From positions 62,001-126,000 of the forward strand of contig NZ_SSWX01000009.1 of assembly GCF_004803635.1 (NCBI RefSeq): 64,000 bases of DNA, written 5' to 3'. This document shows positions 1,612-42,386 of this stretch, one piece after another. Position 1 is the first letter of the stretch, and each line of letters opens with the position of its first letter. The DNA is from Lampropedia aestuarii (GTDB lineage Bacteria; Pseudomonadota; Gammaproteobacteria; Burkholderiales; Burkholderiaceae_C). The position numbers and the translations under genes are program-made. The notes beneath the pieces were generated by a model. That model saw only the letters and a program-made list of their open reading frames with translations. It did not search any database and was not told the DNA's origin.

Positions 1612-2280
1612 TCAATTGTCAGACTTACGCATCCAAACAATGCAACGTTCTGCATCGACGCCCGGCACCTGCAACTGTTCCACGTGAAACACCTGCGCGC
1701 CACTGGGCAAAACCTGCATCTCATCCAGAGGATGTTTGCCTTTCATCGCCATCCACACGCCTTGGGGCTGTAGCAGCTTGTGCGTGAGTTGCACAAAGTC
1801 CAGCAGACTGGCGAAAGCACGCGATGTGATCAGGCTGTAGGGCTGCTGCAGGGATTCAACCCGTGCGTGCGTAGCCAACAAATTGCCCAGTTTCAGCTCC
1901 ACACCTGCCTGACGCACAAAAGCCATTTTCTTGGCCACCGCATCGACACACTGGATATGCACTTGTGGACAACACACGGCCAACACAATACCAGGCAAGC
2001 CGCCGCCCGCGCCCACATCAAGCACCGTAGCGGGCAAGCCCTGCTCTTGCAGTTGATGCATCGCAGTCTGAAACGGCTGCACGACCGCCAGGCAGTCGAG
2101 CAAATGCAGGCGCAGCATTTCTTCAGGGTTGCGCACCGCAGTCAGGTTGTAGACCTTGTTCCACTTCTGCATCAATTCCAAATAATGCAGCAGTTGCTCT
2201 TGCTGGCGAGCCTCCAAGTTCAAGCCCAGTTGCTGCGCACCCTGCTCCAAAGCCTGCGCAATAGTTTCTGTGCTCTCCAT
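1612..2280 (-). CDS. rsmG: 16S rRNA (guanine527-N7)-methyltransferase RsmG
   Basis: A 222-residue SAM-dependent methyltransferase that modifies G527 of 16S rRNA. The glycine-rich SAM loop VLDVGAGGGLPGI lies at about residues 86-98, and the N-terminal helices match GidB (YLELMQKWNKVYNLTAVRN). Its start overlaps the mnmG stop by one base (TAATG), so translation is probably coupled. The 3' coding region contains a full-consensus parS site at 1676-1691, so this stretch is under double selection. Confidence 0.96.
   Translation of the reverse strand: MESTETIAQALEQGAQQLGLNLEARQQEQLLHYLELMQKWNKVYNLTAVRNPEEMLRLHLLDCLAVVQPFQTAMHQLQEQGLPATVLDVGAGGGLPGIVLAVCCPQVHIQCVDAVAKKMAFVRQAGVELKLGNLLATHARVESLQQPYSLITSRAFASLLDFVQLTHKLLQPQGVWMAMKGKHPLDEMQVLPSGAQVFHVEQLQVPGVDAERCIVWMRKSDN
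1676..1691. other. parS: parS site inside rsmG
   Basis: TGTTCCACGTGAAACA matches the general parS consensus TGTTNCACGTGAAACA at all 16 positions. It lies within the coding sequence of rsmG, about 1.6 kb from parB. Confidence 0.88.
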
Positions 2281-4277
2281 TAGCTGTTCACCTCATCAGC
2301 TGGAGCGGCCCAGCGTTTGCCCATTTTCTTCAAATGGATCAGCAGCAGCGACACCGCCGCAGGCGTGATTCCAGATATGCGCGAAGCCTGGCCCAAAGTT
2401 TGCGGGCGGTGCTTAGTCAGTTTTTGACGCACTTCAAATGACAGGGCAGCCACCTGGTTGTAGTCCAGGTCTTCAGGCAGCAACAGGTTTTCAAAATGCA
2501 GCGATTTTTCGACCTCTTCTTTTTGACGGTCGATATAGCCGCTGTACTTGGCCACGATCTCGATCTGCTCAACCACCGGCTCGTACAAATCAGCCAATGT
2601 TTCACATGAAACAGCAGGGCTGGCAATTTGCACCTTGGCGTCAGCTTCGGCTTGCATGCCCATCAAGGCTTTGTAAGTCACCGCTGGACGGCGCAGCAAG
2701 TCAAACAGGTTGTATTCGTGCTCCATGGCTTTGCCCAGCACTCGCTCGCTCTCTTGTTTGGACACAGTGCGTGGCGTGACCCAGGTGGCTTTGAGGCGCG
2801 CAGCTTCTGCATCAATTGCATCACGCTTGCGGCAGAACGCATCCCAGCGGGCATCGTCCACCAAACCCAGGCGGCGACCAGATTCGGTCAAGCGCAAGTC
2901 GGCATTGTCCTCACGCAACTGCAAACGGAATTCGGCGCGGCTGGTGAACATGCGGTACGGCTCGGTCACGCCTTTGGTAATCAAGTCGTCGACCAGCACG
3001 CCCAGATAAGCTTCGTCGCGGCGTGGCAGCCAGGCTTCCTTGTCTTGTGCATGCAAGGCCGCATTCAAACCGGCAAACAGACCTTGGGCTGCCGCTTCTT
3101 CGTAGCCGGTCGTGCCATTGATTTGGCCAGCAAAAAACAGGCCTTGAATCTGGCGTGTTTCGAAACTGTTTTTCAGCGCACGAGGATCATAGTAGTCGTA
3201 CTCGATCGCGTAACCGGGCCGAATGATATGGGCATTTTCCAGGCCAGGCATGGACCGCACCAATGCATACTGAACATCAAACGGCAGGCTGGTCGAGATG
3301 CCATTTGGGTAGACCTCGTGCGTGGTCAGGCCTTCTGGCTCCAGAAAAATTTGGTGGCTGTCTTTGTCGGCAAAGCGGTTGATCTTGTCTTCGACGCTAG
3401 GACAATAACGCGGGCCAACGCCTTCGATCTTGCCGGTGAACATCGGGCTGCGGTCAAAGCCACTGCGAATGATGTCGTGGGTTGTGGTATTGGTGTGCGT
3501 GATCCAGCAAGAGATTTGCCGCGGGTGCATTGCGCGGTTGCCCATGAAGCTGAACACTGGCAGATTGTCCGGATTGTCACCACCGGGCGTGCCATCACCA
3601 GGCTGCTCGGTGCATTTGCTGAAGTCGATGCTGCGGCCATCGAGGCGCGGCGGTGTGCCGGTTTTCAAACGGCCTTGCGGCAGTTGCAATTCTTTCAGAC
3701 GTGCCGACAAAGACACGGCTGGTGGGTCCCCCGCCCTGCCCGCTTGGTAATTATTCAAGCCAACATGGATGCGTCCATCCAAAAACGTACCGGCTGTTAG
3801 CACCACGGTGCGTGATCTGAAACGAATACCGACCTGTGTCACGGCGCCCACAACCTTGTCGCCTTCGAGCATCAAGTCATCGACCGCTTGCTGGAACAGC
3901 CACAGGTTAGGCTGGTTCTCCAGCATGCGGCGCACGGCCGCCTTGTACAAGACACGATCTGCCTGCGCGCGCGTGGCACGCACCGCAGGACCTTTGCTGC
4001 TATTGAGCGTGCGGAACTGAATGCCACTCTCATCGGCAGCCAAGCCCATCGCGCCACCCAGTGCATCGACCTCCTTGACCAGATGGCCTTTGCCAATCCC
4101 ACCAATCGATGGGTTGCAGCTCATCTGCCCCAGCGTTTCAATGTTGTGGGTGAGTAACAGTGTTTTGCTGCCCATGCGAGCAGCAGCCAAGGCCGCTTCA
4201 GTGCCTGCGTGGCCACCGCCAACAACAATGACATCAAACTCTTGGGGGTAGGTATAAGGGGATGCAGATTCAGACAT
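2280..4277 (-). CDS. mnmG: tRNA uridine-34 5-carboxymethylaminomethyl synthase subunit MnmG
   Basis: A 665-residue FAD enzyme which, with MnmE, installs the cmnm5 group on U34 of certain tRNAs. The Rossmann FAD motif [19 protein letters not shown] is near residues 18-36. The family signatures [17 protein letters not shown] and [11 protein letters not shown] follow, and the C-terminus has the usual helical MnmE/tRNA-binding domain. The length is a little above the E. coli protein (629). It heads the leftward rsmG-parA-parB series, the gidA-gidB arrangement often found near replication origins. A degenerate parS lies inside at 2598. Confidence 0.97.
2598..2613. other. Degenerate parS-like site inside mnmG
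   Basis: TGTTTCACATGAAACA differs from the parS palindrome only at one central base (CACATG instead of CACGTG). The central CG is important for ParB recognition, so this may be a weak or decayed site. It is listed because of its position among three full sites. Confidence 0.45.
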
Positions 4278-4388: not shown

Positions 4389-4404
4389 TGTTTCACGTGA
4401 AACA
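4389..4404. other. parS: Perfect palindromic parS site upstream of mnmG
   Basis: TGTTTCACGTGAAACA is a perfect 16-bp palindromic parS. It lies in the intergenic region about 110 bases upstream of the mnmG start and about 30 bases from a large inverted repeat. Confidence 0.95.
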
Positions 4405-4432: not shown

Positions 4433-4593
4433 AGAGCCTGTTCAAAGTCTCCACGCTGACCGCGTTGGAGCCCAAAAGGAGACGATGCGCGGCAAAAACC
4501 GCAGTCGGGCTATCTGCCCGGCGAGGATTTTGAACAAGGCAGCGTGCCTTTTGGGCTCCAACGCGGTCAGCGTGGAGACTTTGAACAGGCTCT
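4433..4593. repeat. 47-bp perfect inverted repeat element (MITE/REP-like)
   Basis: The arms at 4433-4479 and 4547-4593 are exact reverse complements over 47 bases, starting AGAGCCTGTTCAAAGTCTCC. A 67-base loop carries its own hairpin core GGGCTATCTGCCC. No coding region is present. A core of about 33 bases from the loop recurs in reverse orientation at 15690-15727. The structure fits a non-autonomous hairpin element. No target duplication can be assigned. Confidence 0.85.
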
Positions 4594-4599
4594 TATAAC

Positions 4600-4712
4600 T
4601 TGTCCACACGCGCTGTTTATCCACACCGGCGGCTTATCCACAAGCGCGACTTATCCACAAACCATGTGGCCATTCCATGCCGTCAAACCAGCAAATGGTT
4701 GCCTGTGGATAA
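4600..4712. other. DnaA-box array between mnmG and the LysR gene
   Basis: Perfect TTATCCACA boxes lie on the plus strand at 4617-4625, 4634-4642 and 4651-4659, exactly 17 bases apart. A reverse-strand box is at 4704-4712, inside the 3' end of the LysR gene. A one-mismatch box (TTGTCCACA) is at 4600-4608. No trio-like repeat or AT-rich unwinding stretch follows. A DnaA-binding, titration or auxiliary-origin role is more likely than initiation here. Confidence 0.8.
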
Positions 4713-7515: not shown

Positions 7516-7531
7516 TGTTTCACGTGGAACA
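7516..7531. other. parS: parS site downstream of the Bug gene
   Basis: On the minus strand this reads TGTTCCACGTGAAACA, a full match to TGTTNCACGTGAAACA and identical to the site in rsmG. It lies between the convergent Bug and AraC genes, intergenic. Confidence 0.88.
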
Positions 7532-12170: not shown

Positions 12171-12543
12171 TTATCCCCATTGTTATCCACAGCTTTGGGC
12201 AGCGCAAAAACAGCCCTATTGAGCCCACTATGCATACCACTGGGCTGCGCCTGTTCTGCATGTCGCCCACCACACCATGATGGCACTGCTGCCGCGCACA
12301 GGCTAGCCCAAGGCCACATGCCCTGGTGCCGGTTTTGATGGGACTGAAATCCCTACAGCCAATGGCCATTCCCAACCAGTTTTTGAAAACAGGCACTCAC
12401 CAGAGCAATGACGCCTGAGGTGGCGGCATTGAAAGCCTCGCCTGTCTACCGTGAGAAGTGACCGCAGCTCAAGCCTAGCCATCGGTGCAGGCGAGATGGG
12501 CATTATTTGATGGCGTTCTCATGCAGCCCGCAGCTTATCCACA
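12171..12543 (+). other. Outlying DnaA boxes left of the origin modules
   Basis: TTATCCACA occurs at 12183-12191, directly after a TTATCCCCA-type box at 12171-12179, and again at 12535-12543. They are in the same orientation as the boxes next to the unwinding elements. Confidence 0.7.
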
Positions 12544-12878: not shown

Positions 12879-13093
12879 TGTGGATAAGTCTTGGGATCGG
12901 GGCTGCACGGTTTGGGGATGATCGGTCCAATTAGGGCCTCAGTCCAAGTTATCCCCAATTCAGGGTATCGAAGACCCCCTATTGCTGCACATGGTTTGAA
13001 TTTTCTTAAATGCATGTTTTTATTCACTAAAAACAAGTTATCCACAGAGTCCAGGGCCCTTTACTACTACGATTACTTCTTTTTTATACAAAA
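12879..13093 (+). other. oriC: Origin module A: DnaA boxes, DnaA-trio repeat, T-rich unwinding element
   Basis: In order: reverse DnaA box TGTGGATAA (12879-12887), TGGGGATGA (12913-12921), TTATCCCCA (12949-12957) and TTATCCACA (13038-13046). A 14-base GC-rich spacer follows, then TTACTACTACGATTACTTC from 13061 and a T-rich tract. Read in triplets the repeat is TTA-CTA-CTA-CGA-TTA-CTT-CTT, which matches the complement of the DnaA-trio consensus (3'-[G/A]A[T/A]-5'). In the known basal unwinding system a DnaA box, a GC-rich spacer and trios lie in this order. Box offsets are identical to module B. Activity as an origin is inferred. Confidence 0.82.
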
Positions 13094-13195
13094 GCATAGC
13101 AGTCGTAGTTGCTGTTGCGGATATTTTTAAAAATCGGCATCTACACAATCCGTCAGCAACATCTGTGGCCGCATACAGCATCCGCTTGTACTTAC

Positions 13196-13204
13196 TTATC
13201 CACA
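13196..13204 (+). other. Single DnaA box between the modules
   Basis: A perfect TTATCCACA lies 158 bases after the last box of module A, downstream of its T-rich tract. Confidence 0.65.
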
Positions 13205-13432
13205 ACAACAAAAAGCTCACCATACGAGCACCGCCGATGGGACCCCAAACACCACAGTTGAAAAACACAAAAAAATGGCTATTTTTCAAAGGCTTAAACA
13301 CCATAATCAACGCCAGAATTGGCTTGCAATGGCTGAGAAAAAGTACCAATGACGCGGTATCAGCTGCATAAAACGCCGTTTTTGCCTGTTTTTTGTGCAT
13401 TTTTTCTGCGCCATGCCGATTGCCAAGTCCAT

Positions 13433-14047
13433 TTATTGCGATGGATGCGCCCTAGAACTGCGCTGATCAGCATCTTTGGCGTCGCCAATCGCGTAAAAAT
13501 GCCCGCCTGCGATGTAGTGCAAGCTGCGCCATTGCGGATCAGCGCTCTCAAAATGCCAATGTCCATCAGAAAAAATCCGTGTATCGGCCCACGCGGCGAC
13601 CACTTCACCAATAAAAAGGTCGAATTTTTCCTGATTACCTGGCTCTTCAAGTACCCGGCAGGCGAGCCAAGCTGAACAACCAGTCACAAAAGGCAAATCC
13701 AGATCGGGCATTTCAAATAATTGGACGCCACTGCGAATTAATTTGTCTGGTTCTGTGGACAAACTATGGTGGCCCAACTGGTGGGTCATCTCCAATTGCG
13801 CCACAGTCGGAACTTGAATCACAAACCAGCCACTGTGCTCGACCAATTGGCGTGTGAAAGTCATTTTGTCCAAAACTACCGTCAGTTTTGGCGGCAAAAA
13901 GTCCAATACACAAGCCCAAGATGCAGACATAACGTTATCCACACCCAGGTGACGCGCAGAAACCAATACCGTTGGACCATGATTGAGCAATCGGTAGGCT
14001 TTATCAAGCGGCACAGCAGCCAGATGTGGGTTGATTTCAGAATACAT
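13433..14047 (-). CDS. Flavin reductase-like FMN-binding split-barrel protein
   Basis: A 204-residue protein of the flavin reductase-like family. The start is set at ATG 14047 (MYSEINPHLAAVPLDKAYRL), because the extra upstream ORF runs into the DnaA boxes of module B. The segment GPTVLVSARHLGVDNVMSAS and the following SWACVLDFLPPKLTVVLDK match the split barrel, with SWFVIQVP-type strands after it. It is the only gene between the two origin modules. A perfect DnaA box lies inside the coding sequence at 13935. The reaction, probably NAD(P)H-dependent flavin reduction, is inferred from family. Confidence 0.85.
   Translation of the reverse strand: MYSEINPHLAAVPLDKAYRLLNHGPTVLVSARHLGVDNVMSASWACVLDFLPPKLTVVLDKMTFTRQLVEHSGWFVIQVPTVAQLEMTHQLGHHSLSTEPDKLIRSGVQLFEMPDLDLPFVTGCSAWLACRVLEEPGNQEKFDLFIGEVVAAWADTRIFSDGHWHFESADPQWRSLHYIAGGHFYAIGDAKDADQRSSRAHPSQ
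13935..13943 (+). other. DnaA box inside the flavin reductase gene
   Basis: A perfect TTATCCACA lies in the coding sequence, about 180 bases left of module B. Confidence 0.65.
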
Positions 14048-14120
14048 AGGATTTGAAAACTTCAAAATGAGCCCATCCAAAGCAGAAACAGCACCCCAAA
14101 AGCGAGAATTCGCAACAAAC

Positions 14121-14336
14121 TGTGGATAAGTCTTGGGACGGGACTGGCATGGTTTGGGGATGAGTCGCTGCTCCGTCAGCATGCACTAAGTTATCCCCAA
14201 ATTGGTACTCGGAACCAGGGCCCTGCTCGCACAGGCTTGTAATTAGACTAAGGTTTTGATTTAAATCAGGAAAAACAAGTTATCCACAGAATGAGGCAGC
14301 CTTTACTACTACCATTATTTCTTTTTTATTCAAAAA
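14121..14336 (+). other. oriC: Origin module B: second copy of the DnaA-box and trio module
   Basis: TGTGGATAA (14121-14129), TGGGGATGA (14155-14163), TTATCCCCA (14192-14200) and TTATCCACA (14280-14288) lie at offsets 0, 34, 71 and 159. Module A has 0, 34, 70 and 159. A 14-base spacer and a trio-like TTACTACTACCATTATTTC start at 14303, offset 182 as in module A. A T-rich tract ends the module. The sequence between the boxes has largely diverged while the geometry is kept, which suggests selection on function. An FNR-like site overlaps at 14256. Confidence 0.82.
14256..14269. promoter_or_regulatory. FNR-box-like palindrome in origin module B
   Basis: TTGATTTAAATCAG differs by one base from the FNR consensus TTGAT-N4-ATCAA. 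It lies 11 bases before the last DnaA box of module B and about 440 bases from the fnr gene. Confidence 0.4.
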
Positions 14337-14347
14337 AAGTAAGCATA

Positions 14348-15610: not shown

Positions 15611-15792
15611 AGGAGCCTGATCATCATCTCCGCAATGTGTTGGTTGTGCCTTGCCCTTCGGATTGAAGCCAAAAGCCGCACTGCTTTGCTAAAAATCCTT
15701 GCCGGGCAGATAGCCCGACTGCGGTTTAGGCCGTGCATTGCTGCCATTGGGGCTTCAATGCGGCTGCGGGGAGATGTGTGAACCGGCTCTAA
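15611..15792. repeat. Second copy of the GAGCC hairpin element
   Basis: Its ends are imperfect inverted repeats (GAGCCTGATCA... and ...TGAACCGGCTC), with further pairing at ATTGAAGCC/GGCTTCAAT. The central core at 15690-15727 shares about 33 bases, in reverse orientation, with the loop of the element at 4433-4593. This includes GCCGGGCAGATAGCCCGAC. It ends 18 bases before hemN. Confidence 0.75.
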
Positions 15793-24923: not shown

Positions 24924-25160
24924 GTGGAGCAATCGGCTCAGCAGATGCAGTAGCGCAGCGTCAGCACAAACAACGCCTTGCTCAGCATCGGCTATACGGC
25001 ATTGGGATTCGCGCAAGCAAGGCCGGCAGCGCATTCCCGTCAGATGAAAAGACCCATCATAGGACGATTCCTGCTCTTTGGGTTTGGTCAGAACCAGCGA
25101 AATAGCCAGAAATGCTTTAAAAAGTAGGCTGCAGTCGCATGCGAGAAGTCCATGGGCAAG

Positions 25161-25194
25161 AAAAAAGCCCCGTAGTCATTGCTGACTGCGGGGC
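25161..25194 (-). terminator. Leader terminator upstream of ilvA (putative attenuator)
   Basis: On the minus strand GCCCCGCAGTC pairs with GACTACGGGGC (one mismatch) around a 6-base loop, followed by TTTTTT. The only leftward ORF before it is the short leader at 25254-25316. It therefore lies in the 5' leader of ilvA, 238 bases before the gene. Confidence 0.8.
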
Positions 25195-25198
25195 GAAT

Positions 25199-25284
25199 CC
25201 ACCATTTGAGAGGTGGAGGAGACAAATGGTAGTTAAATGGTGTTAATCCAAACCTACATCAGGATCAATAGGGTTAACACCATT
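25199..25284 (-). promoter_or_regulatory. Competing RNA pairings in the ilvA leader
   Basis: In the minus-strand RNA, segment 1 (25274-25284, AATGGTGTTAA) is an exact 11-base complement of segment 2 (25236-25246). Segment 2 can alternatively pair over 8 bases (CACCATTT, 25235-25242) with segment 3 (25200-25207). Segment 1 lies inside the leader peptide codons, so a stalled ribosome would cover it. Segment 3 ends 5 bases before the terminator stem rather than overlapping it, so the switching mechanism is not fully explained. Confidence 0.55.
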
Positions 25285-42156: not shown

Positions 42157-42218
42157 GCGCTTGTGAGTATCTTATTGAATAACCAGCAGTAATGGCCATG
42201 ACAATGGCGCTGCGCTTG

Positions 42219-42386
42219 TGTGGATAAGTGTATTTTGTTATTGCAAAACAATAGCTTATAAATTCTTAAGCCAACTGCACGCCACACATATTGTCGATCG
42301 CCTTTGTTGGGGATAACTTGCTTGCTTGGCCCCTGGCCGGCAGCCAACTTCAGTCCCAGCAGTCGCTGTCAGACGACTTATCCACA
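42219..42386 (-). other. Origin-like module C: third, inverted DnaA-box module without clear trios
   Basis: Read on the minus strand, the boxes are TGTGGATAA (start 42386), TTATCCCCA (start 42316) and TTATCCACA (start 42227). Offsets are 0, 70 and 159, the same as module A and within one base of module B. AAGTTATCCCCAA is shared by all three. The sequence after the last box has only a weak TTA-CTG-CTG run and no T-rich tract. It probably binds DnaA but may not unwind. Confidence 0.75.

Follow-up and report, generated by a model that had tools for sequence, protein, structure and literature searches.

Bacterial chromosomes are usually described with one oriC. The 64,000-nucleotide stretch of Lampropedia aestuarii DNA analysed here (the window) raises the question of whether two similar arrays of DnaA boxes within it are two complete cores of the chromosomal origin.

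Two modules of one geometry

The two arrays, modules A and B, are direct repeats with a spacing of 1242 (an ungapped repeat finder returned the same two copies, as two stretches). Their parts are as follows.

12171..12191, + strand: accessory boxes TTATCCCCA and TTATCCACA, exact
12879..13098, + strand: putative origin module A, with boxes at 12879 (reverse), 12913, 12949 and 13038, IHF-like site, trio and T-rich tract
13007..13019, − strand: IHF-like site of module A, 2 mismatches to WATCAANNNNTTR
13038..13046, + strand: R1-like DnaA box adjoining the trio, module A
13061..13079, + strand: DnaA-trio run TTACTACTACGATTACTTC, module A
14121..14340, + strand: putative origin module B, with boxes at 14121 (reverse), 14155, 14191 and 14280, IHF-like site, trio and T-rich tract
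14249..14261, − strand: IHF-like site of module B, 0 mismatches to WATCAANNNNTTR
14280..14288, + strand: R1-like DnaA box adjoining the trio, module B
14303..14321, + strand: DnaA-trio run TTACTACTACCATTATTTC, module B

In both modules a reverse box TGTGGATAA at offset 0 (12879 and 14121) is followed by TGGGGATGA at +34 (12913 and 14155), TTATCCCCA at +70 (12949 and 14191) and TTATCCACA at +159 (13038 and 14280), then by a 14-nt gap, the trio TTACTACTAC at +182 (13061 and 14303) and a T-rich tract. A preliminary description of the locus had given these box offsets, spacer and trio position, which direct reading bears out to the base, and had held that the spacing is kept while the remainder has diverged; the identity of A and B is indeed 89% at 66 motif positions, marked by hand, and 51% at the remaining 174. 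More exact DnaA boxes lie around the modules at 12183, 12535, 13196 and 13935; these, the IHF-like site, a third, inverted copy, and a box array and parS-type sites near mnmG were absent from that description. Exact boxes at 0/70/159 are expected ~5e-11 times per 4.17-Mb genome by a first-order Markov estimate made for this one geometry, picked post hoc, and a chance origin of the modules is rejected.

The survey of the basal unwinding system requires, in its available text, three trios within 16 bp of a box, and gives a peak of spacer length at 10–13 bp and a potential system in 1755 of 2070 predicted origins (Pelliciari 2021, PMC8287927). Modules A and B share its box, spacer and trio: each has a box, a 14-nt spacer, inside the 16-bp limit, and at least three trios. 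The run TACTACTAC is present in both, and the strict NTN run comprises exactly 3 triplets in each.

Position of the locus on the chromosome

The A/B locus is very probably the chromosomal origin. It combines a DnaA-box cluster and, by its sequence, an unwinding element with a position at the switch in strand asymmetry. The raw cumulative GC skew, computed on one 180-kb contig, is a flat-bottomed V with its minimum window at 22.9 kb and a V fit at 20–24 kb. The flattening comes from the low share of plus-strand coding sequence, only 21% of coding bases, between 14.4 and 26 kb. When the skew is taken at third codon positions and corrected for the coding strand, with genes called by a simple longest-ORF rule, the best switch falls at 15.25–16.5 kb for both GC and TA. 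The 2-lnL interval for GC is 12.5–16.5 kb, and the bootstrap 5–95% ranges are 12.0–20.5 kb for GC and −3.0 to 15.5 kb for TA. The preliminary description had named a skew minimum far from 12–14.5 kb as a result that would refute it; on this contig the corrected GC switch agrees with its reading, and the raw minimum lies off, on the flat bottom.

Other placements of the origin fit less well. At the box array upstream of mnmG (4.6 kb) the corrected skew is worse by 14.4 lnL for GC and 3.6 for TA, and at the third copy (42.3 kb) by 21.6 and 10.2, respectively. A place beside dnaA was also rejected: the gene is on another contig (C2:137298), with a single exact box just upstream. The whole genome has three exact matches to the parS consensus, all of them in the window at 1.7–7.5 kb.

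1676..1691, + strand: parS-type site, exact
4389..4404: parS-type site, exact
7516..7531: parS-type site, exact
2598..2613: parS-type site, one mismatch

The skews of related genomes are mixed. In G195 the raw minimum is ~0.7 kb from one of two modules, with dnaA ~100 kb off. In G004 it is 6 kb from a module; the corrected GC fit fails there (negative coefficient), and the TA optimum is 10–12 kb off, though the module is within 2 lnL. The raw minimum of G012 is 34 kb from the nearest module and 18 kb from dnaA, and the corrected GC interval barely reaches the module. In G012, as in G195, the TA fit fails to indicate the modules. On a contig of G001 (C35, L166–L168) with modules 35 kb apart, the cumulative skew turns near 35 kb, by the module at 37.8 kb and not the one at 2.5 kb. 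The distance between dnaA and the module, measured along the contig, is ~40–110 kb in ten and 120–260 kb in five genomes of a single or few contigs, and ~630 kb in G004. The module is an origin marker independent of dnaA.

Each module has the layout of an E. coli-type core

Besides the boxes and the trio, 22 aligned modules have a conserved YAANNNNTTGATW core at a single offset from the trio-proximal box; the core is the reverse complement of the IHF consensus. This IHF-like site, which played no part in selecting the modules, has on average 2.2 mismatches over the 22, against a mean of 6.15 (SD 0.83) for 110 offsets scanned on the same strand and 3.1 for the best offset on the opposite strand. 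There is no mismatch in module B, two in module A and one in the third copy, and in A and B the site is 27 bp from the trio-proximal box.

Read backwards, the module runs from the trio/AT tract through TGTGGATAA, the IHF-like site at +27, TGGGGATAA at +89 and TCATCCCCA at +125 to TTATCCACA at +159. The oriC of E. coli K-12 (NC_000913.3, 3925744–3925975) has the same order: the DUE side, R1 TGTGGATAA, an IHF-like match at +27 (one of three that score equally), weaker internal boxes and the inverted R4 TTATCCACA. The distance from R1 to R4 is 159 bp in the window modules and 180 bp in E. coli, that is, 21 bp or about two helical turns shorter. Unlike the E. coli oriC, the window has a clear DnaA-trio run, two complete copies and 8.6 kb to mnmG, the gene that adjoins the origin in E. 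coli and in two genomes of the window's own genus (G006 and G007).

Thus, the R1-like box, the IHF-like site and the inverted outer box follow one another in order in both A and B, with the R1–IHF spacing kept. Because of the IHF-like site at +27 and the inverted outer box, each module is, as far as its motifs tell, more than a basal unwinding element and is laid out as a whole E. coli-type oriC core. It differs from the basal system in these two added elements and in being present in two copies per origin.

Distribution of the module in relatives

A sequence-only model (model R1, distinct from box R1) was built from 21 modules, among them A and B of the window genome (G000), the modules of G002, G005 and G009 and one of G004. 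This training set did not include the modules of G001, G003, G006 and G007, the other G004 module or the third copy of the window. A and B, both inside it, score 84.7 and 90.4 bits. Of the 10 genomes in the genus, counting that of the window, 9 have the module at E ≤ 2.6e-9; in the tenth (G008) the match is weak (E 0.04) and lies next to a run of N. At E ≤ 1e-4 there are three copies in G000 and G002, two in each of G001, G004, G005 and G009, and one in each of G003, G006 and G007. Model R1 matches 376 of 399 genomes of the family (E ≤ 0.001), most of them once. At the order level it matches 52 of 150 genomes, 4 of these 52 belonging to the family and the others being mostly weaker.

At least 120 of the 399 family genomes have multiple matches (at least 15 with three and at least 105 with two, E ≤ 0.001), counted anywhere in the genome, with completeness and closeness checked only at 43 loci. 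These counts are lower bounds owing to the stricter filters of the search, and fragmented assemblies may hide further copies. Among the matches listed, at least 39 genomes have several copies on the same contig, 38 of them in the same orientation and one (G417) with an opposed pair 38 kb apart. Also among the matches listed, neighbours in the same orientation are separated by 267 bp (G390) to 13.5 kb (G405), with a third copy of G013 at 20 kb. G004 has an opposed pair 10 kb apart. Three modules lie within ~3.5–5 kb in a single orientation in G168, G390 and G012 (L217, L219 and L181). A match (E ≤ 0.1) lies within 10 kb of mnmG at 18 of 80 named loci, and clear pairs 364–438 bp apart are found near this gene in Delftia sp. 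PS-11, Comamonas kerstersii and C. denitrificans. Two or three copies of the origin core are thus far from rare in this one family, occurring in many of its genomes, some of them named Delftia and Comamonas records.

Within the genus the module adjoins differing genes from genome to genome. It is directly upstream of mnmG in G006 and G007, and in G003 it lies between a SIS/CBS-domain (kdsD-like) and a cobalamin adenosyltransferase gene. The two places in G001, 35 kb apart, are beside fumarase and between TetR and outer-membrane efflux genes. In G005 a dehydroquinase gene and an ornithine cyclodeaminase-like gene flank the modules, which are ~5 kb from mnmG.

Age and conservation of the copies

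The copies were compared at 43 loci of 41 genomes picked for at least two matches, plus the window's kin; 87 modules were kept and six weak partial matches of the 93 dropped. As the loci were picked for multiple matches, this set says nothing on frequency. A trio of the TACTAC type follows the box after 13–18 nt in 86 of the 87 modules, including both members of every pair, the exception being the third copy of the window. The inner box is present with at most one mismatch in 81, the IHF-like site with at most three in 77 and the outer box with at most one in 71. The conservation of boxes and trio is partly circular because box or trio patterns had served to find the training modules of model R1. 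One G009 copy has a single mismatch in each of its two strong boxes.

A genome was scored as one-to-one when its two copies pair with the two of another genome at identities at least 10 points above both the sibling and the crossed comparisons. Twenty-two of the 41 multi-copy genomes pass, and 30 do so with a 5-point margin. G005 and G009, for example, pair at 89% versus 62–64%. Other such sets are G027/G195/G278/G405, G168/G390 and G260/G329, and there are sets across two genera (G235/G428/G134 with G373/G136). A simpler count, in which every copy is nearer to another genome than to its sibling, was uninformative: it gave 36 of 41 genomes, and shuffled labels give 37–41. Mean identity is 59% between siblings and 54% between modules of different genomes. 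The one-to-one pairing in 22 of 41 genomes indicates that the twin cores are old in many lineages, where the copies are, judged by their pairing, old and maintained paralogs.

The paired test established no one-to-one pairing for the two copies in the window or for those in G002: the window pair is 66% and the G002 pair 68% identical, and the A copies of the two genomes are 72% and the B copies 66% identical. In G347, G255 and G178 (L235, L239 and L240) the siblings are 77–89% identical, which suggests recent duplication or conversion.

The gene between the copies

13433..14182, − strand: flavin reductase-like gene between A and B (PF01613, 2.6e-19)

Called from 14182, this open reading frame runs into module B; a start at the ATG that ends at 14047 is likelier, and module B is then just upstream of the gene. 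In G002 the two modules start 515 bp apart, with no ORF of at least 90 aa between them, and in G005 a DUF4279 gene stands between them; the loci holding the pairs in these two genomes gave no flavin reductase match. Seven of 26 gaps examined are without an ORF of at least 90 aa, those in the remaining gaps being mechanical calls. A role for the gene was rejected on these gaps, and its place between A and B is incidental.

The preliminary description had read the locus as a bipartite oriC with two unwinding sites around this gene, analogous to that of Helicobacter. Its core stands, in that the locus is very probably the origin and has two apparent unwinding sites; the weight given to the gene finds no support in the G002, G005 and other gaps, and the analogy is loose. 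The H. pylori oriC has two box clusters and one DUE (in the available text of PMC8235120), whereas here boxes, IHF-like site and trio are in each copy.

The third copy and the array upstream of mnmG

4600..4712, + strand: box array upstream of mnmG, four boxes at 17-bp steps (one with a mismatch) and one reverse box
42206..42386, − strand (inverted): third module, which retains the 0/70/159 boxes and the IHF-like site but lacks a trio at the expected place

The third copy, flanked by a MocR-type (GntR/aminotransferase) gene on one side and an enoyl-CoA hydratase gene on the other, scores 26.3 bits with model R1, having been outside its training set. A copy in G002 (L040) with the same flanking genes has trios (the TTATTACTATCATTATT tract). 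The third copy is best read as a former origin core, on the evidence of these motifs. With boxes and an IHF-like site present and the trio missing from its place, it also invites comparison with datA- or DARS-type sites. At the position of the window's array, G006 and G007 carry an origin module and G008 the weak match beside the run of N; the array may be the remnant of an older place of the origin.

Comparison with known origins

The two modules share with the bipartite origins of H. pylori and B. subtilis the presence of two DnaA-box clusters close together. In B. subtilis there is one opening site, with the clusters around dnaA (PMC13220808, available text, which also names the IHF site, trios, datA and DARS). 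The preliminary description gives the same placement around dnaA for H. pylori. In the window A and B each have a trio and a T-rich tract, and dnaA is on another contig, not between them.

Double origins on one chromosome have been proposed before. DoriC has very few putative cases, including Ralstonia pickettii 12D, one a close pair around two dnaA genes and others 150, 291 and 882 kb apart, with no evidence that two functional origins are ever used on one chromosome (Gao 2015, PMC4403523). Here, by contrast, the modules are homologous, of one geometry and often within 0.3–13 kb. The skew switch of chromosome 1 of Cupriavidus metallidurans CH34 is ~90 kb from dnaA, and a 213-nt stretch ahead of it holds three perfect DnaA boxes (PMC2864759). 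This origin is likewise distant from dnaA, but the available part of that paper describes no duplication or module geometry.

One strain of V. cholerae has the unlike origins of two fused chromosomes rather than twins of one core. That natural strain has two functional origins on one chromosome (Ori-Finder 2022, PMC10225481, available text), and so shares with our proposal two origins on one chromosome in nature, functional in its case. The literature searched, largely without subscription journals, yielded no description of twin complete oriC cores, and two complete cores in this family are not described in the available text of PMC4403523, PMC8287927, PMC2864759, PMC4572682, PMC8235120, PMC10225481 and PMC13220808. 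The twin complete cores are very probably the real origin. They make testable the use of two unwinding sites, once-per-cycle control over them and the movement of an origin along the chromosome.

A proposed composite origin and the alternatives

We favour, with some but not strong confidence, the reading that this Comamonadaceae-type bacterium has a composite chromosomal origin, made up of two complete E. coli-type cores as direct repeats, 1.24 kb apart, each of which can be opened. From the observed motifs, spacing, skew position and conservation we infer binding, bending and opening as follows. DnaA would occupy the R1-like box (13038/14280) as well as the inverted outer box (12879/14121), between which weaker TGGGGAT-type boxes lie, and IHF would introduce a bend 27 bp from R1. 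Next, DnaA would load on the DnaA-trio past the 14-nt spacer and open the T-rich tract. Each core would be able to open, the second adding redundancy or raising the chance of initiation at one genetic origin locus; the third, trio-less copy 28 kb off, on this reading a former origin core, would still bind DnaA but not open. A wider proposal, that about a third of the family has two or three complete homologous cores, in many lineages separate paralogs across species, each able to start replication as a natural redundancy, is made only tentatively. Two copies are not required, since most family genomes show one match.

The pair might instead be a snapshot of turnover, in which cores duplicate, one takes over and the other decays, the third copy being a later stage. 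This would account for the absence of a trio from its place in that copy and its presence in the G002 counterpart, for the weakened boxes in one G009 copy, for the different neighbours of the module within the genus and for the recent look of siblings in three genomes; nor is the window pair demonstrably older than the split from G002. The one-to-one pairing in 22 genomes and the trios kept in both copies speak against it, and we consider it rather unlikely. Slightly less credence goes to an arrangement in which one core opens and the second, an enhancer of DnaA loading, contacts it through a loop, as B. subtilis oriC1, a possible enhancer, may do through a DnaA-formed loop to oriC, with strand separation at oriC alone (PMC13220808, available text). 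The spacing of neighbouring copies, ~0.27 to >13 kb among the matches listed, would be tolerable for looping, but a pure enhancer needs neither DnaA-trio nor spacer, and the trio is kept in 86 of 87 modules, in a set found with a model that includes it.

That the extra copies serve for DnaA titration or nucleotide exchange, like datA or DARS, suits boxes lacking a trio, as in the third copy and perhaps the mnmG-upstream array; for A and B, which both keep trio, spacer and T-rich tract, it fits poorly, and we regard it as very improbable. The position of module B just upstream of the flavin reductase gene is what could be said for chance or for promoter-associated DnaA boxes of that gene; with the ~5e-11 box triples expected per genome, a module in 376 of 399 family genomes and no flavin reductase match at the pair loci of G002 and G005, we give this practically no credence. 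The composite of two openable cores remains our preferred reading of the A/B locus.

Other features of the window

A perfect 47-nt inverted repeat with 67 nt between its arms occupies 4433–4593, on the side of the box array that faces mnmG. It overlaps a 95-nt stretch with 81% complementarity to 15669–15763, near Crp/Fnr-type and hemN-like genes. At 25160–25224 on the − strand there is a match to RF02278 (Betaproteobacteria toxic small RNA) of 50.9 bits, just over the cut-off of 50.
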